DNA from: Rhodophyticola sp.
GTDB lineage: Bacteria; Pseudomonadota; Alphaproteobacteria; Rhodobacterales; Rhodobacteraceae
DNA length: 33,665 nucleotides
Assembly: GCA_028279315.1 (NCBI GenBank)
Contig: JANQNZ010000113.1
Location: forward strand, 1 to 33,665
Direction of reading: 5' to 3'
Under the pieces are notes generated by a model. That model was not told the DNA's origin. It did not search any database and saw only the letters and a list, made by a program, of their open reading frames with translations. Position 1 is the first letter of the stretch, and each line of letters starts with the position of its first letter. Made by a program: the position numbers and the translations under genes. Shown in pieces: positions 8,881-32,469 of this stretch.

Positions 8881-8952
8881 CGTAGGGCGGGACTTGTCCC
8901 GCCGCGCCGGACCGAACCCTTGCTTGAGCGGCGGGACAAGTCCCGCCCTACG
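8881..8952. repeat. Nested-palindrome inverted repeat (family 1, copy 1)
   Basis: Two 23-bp arms (8881-8903 and 8930-8952) are perfect reverse complements of each other, separated by 26 bp. Each arm contains its own palindrome, GGCGGGAC-TT-GTCCCGCC or its AA-centred counterpart. The element can therefore fold either as one long stem or as two short hairpins. It begins 7 bp after the permease stop. Identical arms occur at 12985-13058 and 26678-26751. Confidence 0.9.
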
Positions 8953-9018
8953 CCAATATCTAAGTATCGCGCCGAACCACCATCGTTCTACGCCCCCTGC
9001 CCGAATAGCGCCGAAGGC

Positions 9019-9161
9019 GCCGGGCATCGACAGGCCGCCCGGGCGGTCTGGCGATTTGGCTGAGTCTGGGTGCTGAGATTGGAGTGAGGAGGGGTTTGGC
9101 CGGGATAAAGCGCGTCGGCTCAGACGTTGGATCGCCAGTCCCCGGCCTGTCGATGCCCGGC
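9019..9161 (+). repeat. MITE-like interspersed element (family 2, copy A)
   Basis: A 143-bp element bounded by perfect 19-bp terminal inverted repeats (GCCGGGCATCGACAGGCCG at 9019-9037, its reverse complement at 9143-9161). Inner arms TGGCGAT / ATCGCCA extend the symmetry. The interior includes a conserved GGATAAAGCGC block. The flank just left of it (TGCCCGAATAGCG, ending 9009) is also conserved in the other copies. The arm of the family 1 inverted repeat ends exactly 66 bp upstream. Short ORFs across it are repeat-derived and are not called as genes. The 8875-9328 gap is otherwise filled by the groEL terminator and two small hairpins. Confidence 0.88.
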
Positions 9162-9203
9162 TTTTGTCGTCCTTGCGTTACCCTCCGAACGCCCTGCCCT
9201 ATC

Positions 9204-9233
9204 AAAAACAAAGGCCCGCGATTGCGGGCCTTT
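9204..9233 (-). terminator. Intrinsic terminator of groESL
   Basis: Read on the minus strand, a 10-bp perfect stem (AAAGGCCCGC with GCGGGCCTTT, 9210-9219 and 9224-9233, 4-base loop) is followed by TGTTTTT. This is a good rho-independent terminator about 95 bp after the groEL stop. Confidence 0.82.
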
Positions 9234-9256
9234 GCATTGTCAGATTCGGGCCAACT

Positions 9257-12913: not shown

Positions 12914-12931
12914 GGGCGTAAGCGGACCGGC

Positions 12932-13058
12932 AAGCCGGGCGTCGGCAGGCCGGAGGTTGGCGATCCGGCCTTTAAGTCGTCACTCGTAGGGCGGGACTTG
13001 TCCCGCCGTCCAAGGCGATCCACGACCGGGCTTGTGGCGGGACAAGTCCCGCCCTACG
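12932..13058. repeat. Solo family 2 end joined to family 1 inverted repeat (copy 2)
   Basis: This lies between convergent genes. Positions 12932-12966 match one terminal arm plus inner arm (GGCGATC) of the family 2 element in inverted orientation, with GTCGGC in place of ATCGAC. The other end and interior are missing. After 18 bp comes the complete family 1 inverted repeat: 23-bp perfect arms at 12985-13007 and 13036-13058, separated by 28 bp. The order fits an inverted composite element with an internal deletion of roughly 190 bp. The region 12914-13073 holds nothing else that I can see. Confidence 0.8.
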
Positions 13059-17863: not shown

Positions 17864-17976
17864 AAGCAAACGTCCCCAAATCGGGATGCGCTTGGGTTGA
17901 ACCACACCACTCTTGAGCAAAGCGGCGCAGAGCAGCCGTTCTTCTCCTTCCCCTGCCCGAATAGCGCGCCGAAGGC

Positions 17977-18117
17977 GCCGGGCATCGACAGGCCGCCCGG
18001 GCGGTCTGGCGATTTGGTTGATCTTGGGCTGAGGTCTGAGCGAGGAGGGGTTTGGCTGGGATAAAGCGCACCCGCTCAATCGTTGGATCGCCAGCCCACG
18101 GCCTGTCGATGCCCGGC
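17977..18117 (+). repeat. MITE-like interspersed element (family 2, copy B)
   Basis: A 141-bp element with the same perfect 19-bp terminal inverted repeats as copy A (17977-17995 and 18099-18117). It has the same inner arms (TGGCGAT / ATCGCCA) and the same interior GGATAAAGCGC block. The conserved left flank TGCCCGAATAGCG is present, but no family 1 inverted repeat precedes it. It lies between the convergent threonine aldolase and alpha/beta hydrolase genes. The gap 17864-18192 holds no other feature that I can support. Confidence 0.88.
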
Positions 18118-18192
18118 TTGCGTTTCGGCCCGGAGGCAAACCGTATTGCTGGCGCCCAGTTTCAAGCTGATCTCATCACGATCTAAAAGGCT

Positions 18193-25827: not shown

Positions 25828-26388
25828 TTATCCGACCTCTTTCATGGAATTTTGCAGGGCGTTGAGCTTCGAGCGGACCGAGCTGTCGATCATTTTCGAG
25901 CCAACTTTGACAACAAGACCGCCGATGAGGCTTTCATCGACGGTCGCATTCAGGTTCACTTGCTTGCCGACAGAGGCTTTCAGCGCTTGGGCAAGCTTGT
26001 CGGATTGGGCTTGGGTGAGCGGCTTGGCCGATGTCACATCCACCGTCACTTCGCCCTTATGGTCTGCGATTTTCTCGCGGAGCGCGCGCAGAAGCGCAGG
26101 CAGCACAAAGAGGCGGCGCTTGGCGGCCATCAGCTTCAGCGTATTCGCGGTCATCGGGCCGAGGTTCATGGCGGTGGCCACCGCCCCAATCGCCGCTGCA
26201 GATTCCTCGCGGCCATAGATGGGGGAGCTGATCATGTCTTGCAGATCGGCGCTGCCCTGAATGGCGCCTTCCAGGGCCGCGACATCGCCTTCCAGAGCGT
26301 CGAGCGCCTTTGCTTCGGTGGCCAGTTCAAACAATGCGGTCGCGTAGCGCGCGGCAATGCCGGTCGAGATCGAAGCAGGTTCGGACAC
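25828..26388 (-). CDS. atpH: ATP synthase F1 delta subunit
   Basis: The 186-residue delta subunit, the peripheral-stalk cap that holds the F1 head to subunit b. The N-terminal helical domain begins [20 protein letters not shown], and the C-terminal signature [28 protein letters not shown] (its parts GGLVVKVG and DSSVRSKL) is clear. The start is GTG at 26386-26388, supported by AAAGGG a few bases upstream and the conserved [11 protein letters not shown] position; a longer ATG reading from 26484 encodes an Arg/Pro-rich stretch unlike the family. It is the first gene of the atp operon. The Fo genes are elsewhere, as is usual in this group. Confidence 0.96.
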
Positions 26389-26494
26389 GTCCACCCTTTC
26401 AGTATTTCGGCCCGGCGCCGCGCGAGGGTCGCGTCCGGGCTGTTCGCGTCTTGGCCGGGCGCGTGTCCCAAAGCCATTCCCCAAAATCGCGCTT

Positions 26495-26677: not shown

Positions 26678-26751
26678 CGTAGGGCGGGACTTGTCCCGCC
26701 GCGCGAAAACGATCCAATGCCGGGCGGCGGCGGGACAAGTCCCGCCCTACG
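26678..26751. repeat. Nested-palindrome inverted repeat (family 1, copy 3)
   Basis: Two 23-bp perfect inverted arms (26678-26700 and 26729-26751) are identical in sequence to the other two copies, separated by 28 bp of unrelated sequence. Each arm again holds the GGCGGGAC-TT-GTCCCGCC palindrome or its complement. It lies upstream of the atp operon promoter region and downstream of the leftward methyltransferase gene. Confidence 0.9.
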
Positions 26752-26817
26752 CGGCTTGAGCGCCGCCTCGTCGAACCACCGTCCGTCTACGCCCCCTGCC
26801 CGAATAGCGCCGAAGGC

Positions 26818-26957
26818 GCCGGGCATCGCCAGACCGTCCCGCGGGCTGGCGATTGGGCTAAGCCAGGTTCTCAGATTGGATTGAGGATGTGTTTGGTTGC
26901 CATAAAGCGCGCCGAACAAAGCTTCGATCGCCATCCCCCGGTCTGGCGCTGCCCGGC
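26818..26957 (+). repeat. MITE-like interspersed element (family 2, divergent copy C)
   Basis: A 140-bp divergent copy. Its terminal arms are at 26818-26836 and 26939-26957. Relative to copies A and B, the left arm carries A to C and G to A changes at arm positions 12 and 16. The right arm carries the matching T to G and C to T changes, so pairing is kept; one further right-arm change is unpaired. It starts exactly 66 bp after the family 1 inverted repeat, the same as copy A. No gene is supported in 26389-27002 apart from the promoter and these repeats. Confidence 0.85.
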
Positions 26958-27002
26958 TTCCCGTTGCTTTCATTGGCAAAGTCGGACCGGCCCTGCCGCC
27001 AA

Positions 27003-27767
27003 TTACTCGGCGCCTCCGACCCGACCCGAAATCCCCGCGGGCTTCGGAACCCCCTCCAAGACCCGCAACGGTCGGCGCACCCGTTCGGCCAAACCAGGCC
27101 TTGTCGGCGCATAGACCTGCTTGGACGCCTCAACCAGGATCACCCCGCCTGCGTAATAGGACGAGAGTTTGCGTCCCAGCTTCTCCACCATCTCCGCCGA
27201 TTTCAGGATCGCGCGACGGTGGCTTGGCGGCGCAAACAGCGCGGCGCTGTGGCGTTCCGGCACAAAATCATGGCGCTTCAACTGTGCCTCCAACTGGCTA
27301 AGCGTATAGGGGCGGCCAAAGCCAAAGGGCGTGGCATCCCGCCTGGCCCACATGCCGGAGCGGTTCGGCACGATGAAAAGCGCCCGACCGCCGGGGCCCA
27401 GAACCCGCGCGCATTCCTCCAACACTGCCGATGGATGCTCAGAAGTCTCCAATCCGTGCAAACAGACGAGCTTGTCGGCGAACCCGGTTTGGATCGGCCA
27501 CAACCCCTCCCGACACAGAACTGAGACATTATCGAGCCCTGAGGGCCAGGGCATCACCCCCTGCTCTGCCGGCATCAGCCCAATCACCCGGCGCGCATCG
27601 GCCAGATAGGGGCGCAAAAGCGGCACCGCGAAGCCGAAACCCAGCACCGTCTGGCCTTTCGCCTCGGGCCAGAGCGCCAGCATCTGATCGCGCACCGCCT
27701 TCTGAGCGATCCGGCCAAGCCGCGTGCGATAATAGAACTGGCGCAAGTCCAGCACATCCAGATGCAT
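27003..27767 (-). CDS. Putative SAM-dependent methyltransferase
   Basis: A 254-residue protein with the layout of a class I (Methyltransf_11-like) methyltransferase. After an N-terminal helix region come [15 protein letters not shown] (41-55), where the glycine-rich SAM loop is expected, then [37 protein letters not shown], and a C-terminal basic tail. Motif I is unusual: GFGFA in place of the more common E/DxGxGxG. SAM binding is therefore probable but not certain. The substrate is unknown. It diverges from gloB (start at 27836) across a 68-bp gap; this pairing is, to my recollection, common in Rhodobacteraceae. The ATG at 27765-27767 gives the natural N-terminus [13 protein letters not shown]. 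Confidence 0.75.
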
Positions 27768-32126: not shown

Positions 32127-32190
32127 GCGGAGATGAGATCGGGCCAAGGCAGGCGTCGACCGGCTCAGATCGGTCCCAAGCACAACACAA

Positions 32191-32380
32191 GCCGGGCGTC
32201 GACAGGCCGAGGGCTGGCGATCCAACATCTGAACTGCGGTGCTTTATGGCAGCCAAGCTCCTCCTCGCTCCGATCTCAGCTCCAGGATCAACCCAATCGC
32301 CAGACCGCCCGGGCGGCCCCTCTCGGCAGATTTTCTACGAAAATCGCCTGTCAGCAACGTGTCGATGCCCGGCGCCTTCG
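32191..32380 (-). repeat. MITE-like interspersed element (family 2, inverted copy D, interrupted)
   Basis: This is the same element as copies A-C in inverted orientation. One terminal arm is at 32191-32209 (with GTCGAC in place of ATCGAC). The other arm is split: GGCGGCC ends at 32318, 41 bp of foreign sequence follow, and TGTCGATGCCCGGC resumes at 32360. The conserved flank CGCTATTCGGGCA follows at 32381-32393. It lies between the convergent M23 peptidase and OmpA-domain genes. Nothing else was found in 32127-32469. Confidence 0.85.
32319..32359. repeat. Small hairpin repeat (family 3) inserted in copy D
   Basis: A 41-bp block with CCTCTCGGCA, stem GATTTTC (32329-32335), loop TAC, stem GAAAATC (32339-32345), then GCCTGTCAGCAACG. 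It interrupts a terminal arm of the family 2 element exactly, and it shares its flanks with the hairpin at 9257-9300, whose stem bases differ but still pair. Confidence 0.75.
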
Positions 32381-32469
32381 GCGCTATTCGGGCAGGAGTC
32401 TAGAATGGTGGTTGTTCGGTGAGGTTCCCGCTCACAGGCAGCGGCGCATCTACCCAAGGGGATCAGGCG

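Follow-up and report, generated by a model that had tools for sequence, protein, structure and literature searches.

Two unrelated intergenic repeats in a Rhodophyticola genome: a GTAG-class REPIN and a long, structured and very probably mobile element of an apparently undescribed family

Two unrelated non-coding repeats share intergenic gaps in a 33,665-nucleotide stretch of DNA from Rhodophyticola sp. (assembly GCA_028279315.1, contig JANQNZ010000113.1, positions 1 to 33,665; hereafter the window): a REPIN of the GTAG class and a long element of approximately 180-195 bp. The first-pass annotation of the window had described a single composite repeat of about 280 bp; instead, these are two independent repeats side by side, and most copies of each stand alone. 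The long element appears to be an undescribed family of a known broad kind (REP/BIME/MITE-type repeats). The explanation that we favour, with a probability of roughly 0.55, is that it is a non-autonomous mobile element recognised via its folded strand, with the mover supplied elsewhere in the cell. The window's own assembly (G000) comprises 3.3 Mb in 357 contigs and is 89% complete; G015, G021, G024, G051, G079 and G180 denote other genomes compared. Beyond motif scans, whole genomes were covered through the sequence surrounding copies and through sampled windows. The copies in the window are as follows:

8881..8952, no strand assigned: REPIN 1 (part 1 of copy A), an inverted repeat with exact GTAGGGCGGGACTTGTCCCGCC REPs at 8882-8903 (+) and 8930-8951 (-).
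8973..9168, plus strand: long element, copy A (profile match 204 bits), with outer arms at 9019-9037 and 9143-9161, an inner stem pairing 9048-9055 with 9131-9138, and the core TTGGCCGGGATAAAGCGC at 9096-9113.
12931..12979, minus strand: long element, right end only (profile match 22.9 bits, model 147-195).
12985..13058, no strand assigned: REPIN 2, adjoining the truncated long element, with exact REPs at 12986-13007 (+) and 13036-13057 (-).
17929..18125, plus strand: long element, copy B, without a REPIN (profile match 193 bits), with the core at 18052-18069.
26678..26751, no strand assigned: REPIN 3 (part 1 of copy C), with exact REPs at 26679-26700 (+) and 26729-26750 (-).
26772..26961, plus strand: long element, copy C (profile match 147 bits), whose neighbours run in the same direction.
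32183..32418, minus strand: long element, copy D (profile match 158 bits), with an approximately 41-bp nested palindrome at about 32319-32359.

Copies A, B, C and D, recognised in the first-pass annotation, are real and carry the 19-bp terminal inverted repeats reported for them, and the nested-palindrome pair described in copies A and C is present. The boundaries required revision: the second part, taken to be about 140 bp long, measures approximately 180-195 bp, weak conservation extending about 25 bp to the left and about 16 bp to the right, and the partial copy at 12931-13058 exists not as a plain deleted form but as a REPIN together with the right end only of the long element. The 66-bp spacer between the two parts holds for copies A and C; elsewhere REPIN adjacency is occasional, with a REPIN lying 56-77 bp upstream in 7 of 63 long-element copies and downstream in three others of the 63. 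A single 280-bp unit in G000 was rejected because the spacing is variable and most copies are solitary. Copies B and D had both been assigned the second part only; this is correct for copy B, whereas copy D additionally contains the palindrome of about 41 bp. The latter is a third palindromic repeat (CGGCAGG-TTTTC-AAAAC-CCTGCCG type) inserted within the long element, observed in the window (32319-32359) and at L115 (C319), L085 (C221) and L015 (C265); it occurs in either arm of the long element, at the corresponding point adjoining GGCC.

Part 1 consists of two head-to-head GTAG-class REPs with the unit GTAGGGCGGGACTTGTCCCGCC, the first on the plus and the second on the minus strand (8881-8952, 12985-13058 and 26678-26751), each a short palindrome preceded by a GTAG tag. 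A GTAG REP dimer of this description is a REPIN (PMC3733652) and, as judged from its sequence, part 1 is an ordinary REPIN of the GTAG class, belonging with the GTAG REPs, REPINs and BIMEs (PMC3733652, PMC3116915). The REP motif was found at 130 places in G000 at up to two mismatches (control, 0), and all 100 of the places listed, of the 130, are exact copies. No RAYT (Y1) transposase was found in G000, a fragmented assembly of 89% completeness. Several G000 long elements (C335/L116, C336/L004, C169/L082, C90/L027 and C203/L083) have another GTAG-class REP pair, GTAGACCGGGCCTTGGCCCGG, next to them; by these motifs, G000 hosts more than one REP family. The earlier description of the repeat as a non-autonomous mobile or REP/BIME-like family was right in outline, the first part being a classic REPIN/BIME of the GTAG class. 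The second part falls outside the definition of a REP: REP units are approximately 20-40 bp in length and have a GTAG or CGTC end tag, and the long element, at approximately 180-195 bp, has no such tag at its ends in the alignments.

The repeat family extends well beyond the window. A 26-mer of part 2 matched at least 124 places in the 3.3-Mb G000 at up to three mismatches (reversed control, 0). The family is clearly neither limited to a handful of copies nor explained by segmental duplication. Sixty-six full copies were recovered from G000; several copies lie at contig ends, so the true copy number is probably higher. Of 199 genomes from the bacterial family, 41 contain the exact core motif (control matches number about a dozen overall), with 51 copies in G000, 67 in G024 and smaller bursts elsewhere, and inside one genus the copy number of the long element ranges from none detected to more than 100. 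When named genomes were scanned with a 20-mer, the matches listed fell in many genera, almost all of them Rhodobacterales and including Tropicimonas, Celeribacter, Alloyangia and Puniceibacterium; a single Paenibacillus match (L198) gave no profile match and was treated as chance. Phages yielded no match to the long element. Tandem arrays of the long element occur in two other genera: in G180, with a 203-bp period, and in G024, where units of approximately 290 bp each include another GTAG-type REP; the association with REPs thus recurs, though there is no fixed unit in G000.

Read 5' to 3', the long element comprises H1, which is a hairpin of the GCCCGG-AATCAAG-CCGAAGG-CGCCGGGC type, then an arm that pairs with the far end, followed by an inner stem and a variable top. 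After these come the conserved core TTGGCNNNNATAAAGYGC, the partner arms and a short GGCTTGCGTTGCGC-type tail. A short form lacking the top and core is also found. Over 113 diverse copies, pairing reaches 88% in H1, 90% in the outer stem, 95% in P2 and 95% in P3, compared to 20-58% in the slid control. Two-sided changes number 33, 43, 53 and 20 in the same helices, against shuffle maxima of 11, 18, 16 and 9 (300 shuffles per helix; both shuffling and sliding ignore shared ancestry). Compensatory changes between genera are therefore found in every helix tested of what is predicted to be a long imperfect hairpin. The outer stem and H1 share a middle arm, so that only one of the two can pair at a time, and many genera preserve both pairings: the left, middle and right arms covary, from GCCCGG/CCGGGC/GCCCGG to GCACGG/CCGTGC/GCACGG or GACCGG/CCGGTC/GACCGG. 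Some element classes keep one pairing only, as in G180, which retains H1 and has lost the outer arm. In individual G000 copies, most stem changes disrupt pairing, as is expected if constraint acts on the masters alone and single copies degenerate once inserted.

Covariation of this RNA-like form, two pairings competing for one middle arm, and the position of the copies just past stop codons would all suit a structured RNA as the functional unit, whether its transcripts return to the chromosome as new copies or the copies act as regulatory RNAs at the ends of transcripts. We consider such a role improbable, given that orientation relative to the transcription of flanking genes shows no preference (36 to 42), that the stem mismatches in G000 (11 G-T, 19 A-C) reveal no G-T excess on one strand, that the excess in the diverse set points in either direction depending on the helix, and that the window has no match in Rfam 15 at gathering score, permissive scans finding nothing meaningful on the long element. 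An RNA-strand wobble signal, absent from G000 and inconsistent among the helices of the diverse set, was rejected.

Element-free counterparts at the copy B locus and at two plasmid loci indicate that the family is very probably mobile. In four genomes of the same genus, synteny identifies the copy B locus without the element, the same two convergent genes nearly abutting. Plasmids of Salipiger sp. CCB-MM3 carry the element at two loci, one filled site being within an ABC-transporter gene row; both loci are element-free in two Alloyangia pacifica plasmids, and one of the two is also element-free in a Salipiger abyssi plasmid. Insertion is the simpler reading at these sites, although the filled and empty plasmid sites are only approximately 84-87% identical, so that the element ends are approximate and loss in the relatives would be a less likely alternative. 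In plasmid unnamed3 of CCB-MM3 (L318, 1501-1670), the element separates the permease gene of an ABC transporter from its ATPase gene and is flanked by the near-repeats AAGGGTGCCGCT and AAGGTTGCCGCC, which might be a target duplication. Insertion into terminator hairpins was hinted at by one plasmid locus and rejected, flank complementarity being unconvincing (z of -0.3 in G000 and -2.2 at the named loci).

A Pfam scan of 20 genes in the window revealed no transposase. Of 14 genomes that bear the element, 12 (G000, G024 and G180 among them) gave no Y1 transposase in a search that detected its positive controls. Copy-rich genomes of the long element thus depart from the pattern of RAYT-mobilised REPs, in which the Y1 gene is present; RAYT mobilisation was rejected on this basis, and a mover of a different kind is needed. 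Several fragmentary Y1 transposase genes were observed in the relatives G021 and G051.

The main rival to a folded-strand element is a conventional MITE, in which duplex terminal inverted repeats would be served by a DDE transposase in trans and the arms would covary because both ends match that transposase. Part 2 does have terminal inverted repeats and is short, non-coding and dispersed; moreover, its 19-bp inverted repeats are alike within a genome and differ between genera, and element-free sites exist in relatives. We nevertheless find this account doubtful: covariation extends to the inner helices and H1 and is not limited to the ends, copies are abundant in G180 despite the lost outer arm, and the core is kept across genera. 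In addition, no clear target-site duplication was seen in the flanks or at the two filled/empty sites (where the ends are approximate), and the loci sampled around copies contained neither an autonomous parent, with a gene between element halves, nor an IS-length relative. A structure-recognising enzyme acting on single strands would be the best fit to the internal covariation and to the orientation of the copies.

With respect to orientation, the element is co-directional with replication at 28 of 35 sites in G180 and, in G015, at all 9 of the sites scored by profile or exact motif, but at only 7 of 12 sites in G079, and the trend in G000 is weak (replication arms were inferred from GC skew across windows sampled along the genome). 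A replication link is suggestive in two of the three chromosomes tested and is not general. Orientation along fork movement would be expected if the substrate were single-stranded DNA at the replication fork.

Among G000 copies with both neighbours known (n = 61), 37 lie between convergent genes, 23 between tandem genes and 1 between divergent genes; in named genera, 49 of 97 copies are between convergent genes, compared to 18% of all adjacent pairs (neighbouring genes were called using a simple codon model). Four of the five window loci are convergent, the exception being copy C, with same-direction genes. REPIN 3 and copy C (26678-26961) are located in a gap directly upstream of ATP synthase genes (delta subunit at 25828-26484, minus strand), where they lie approximately 41 bp beyond the stop codon of the gene at 27003-27767. 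The strong preference for convergent gaps, with divergent ones nearly avoided, could mean that selection keeps copies as bidirectional terminators or supercoiling sites, and a role of this kind has been proposed for some REPs and BIMEs. As the explanation of the family it is very unlikely: copy number varies from none detected to more than 100 inside one genus, the same gaps occur element-free, groEL adjoining copy A retains its own terminator-like hairpin (approximately 9212-9236), and the same kind of site, after stop codons and in convergent gaps, is reported for REPs in general (PMC3733652).

Part 2 resembles GTAG REPs, REPINs and BIMEs in being present in many copies, in its palindromic fold and in its location after stop codons and in convergent gaps, and differs from them in its length of approximately 180 bp, lack of a GTAG tag, conserved core, several covarying helices and hosts mostly without a RAYT. 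Bacterial MITE-like intergenic repeats further include ERIC and the Correia elements of Neisseria. Compared to RU, ERIC and Correia-type repeats, the long element is similar in size range, inverted repeats, dispersal and absence of coding, but it has a conserved core, internal covariation and tandem arrays, and no target duplication was seen; we know of no sequence relation between it and any of the three. The enterobacterial RU elements are MITE-like intergenic repeats of 127 and 168 bp (PMC2759123). IS200/IS605-type elements and their small derivatives move as single strands by means of a Y1 transposase (PMC6006769); the long element is like them in its hairpins near both ends and its possible replication-direction bias, and unlike them in that its hosts mostly lack a Y1 transposase and the loci sampled contain no IS-length relative. 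A description of the repeat was not found in the open-licence literature, either by sequence or by topic.

Under the favoured reading of a non-autonomous element recognised via its folded strand, one strand would fold into a long imperfect hairpin with the outer stem, the competing 5' hairpin H1, inner stems and the conserved core; a recombinase or transposase supplied in trans would recognise the folded strand and core; and new copies would be placed in permissive gaps past gene ends, often along fork movement. Both the mover and the single-stranded intermediate are elements that we infer. We raise, tentatively, the more specific idea of an unrecognised Rhodobacterales transposition system, in which a non-Y1 enzyme would act on a folded single strand at the fork and give rise to both dispersed and tandem multiplication.

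Dozens of Rhodobacterales genera carry the long element, some with more than 100 copies. It shapes gene-end regions and probably contributes to fragmented assemblies such as G000. Since copy-rich hosts have been cultured (for example, Pseudoroseicyclus tamaricis), the family would lend itself to a clear-cut test of RAYT-independent spread of small repeats, with the further assets of a fold that is well constrained by covariation and of filled and empty sites between related plasmids.
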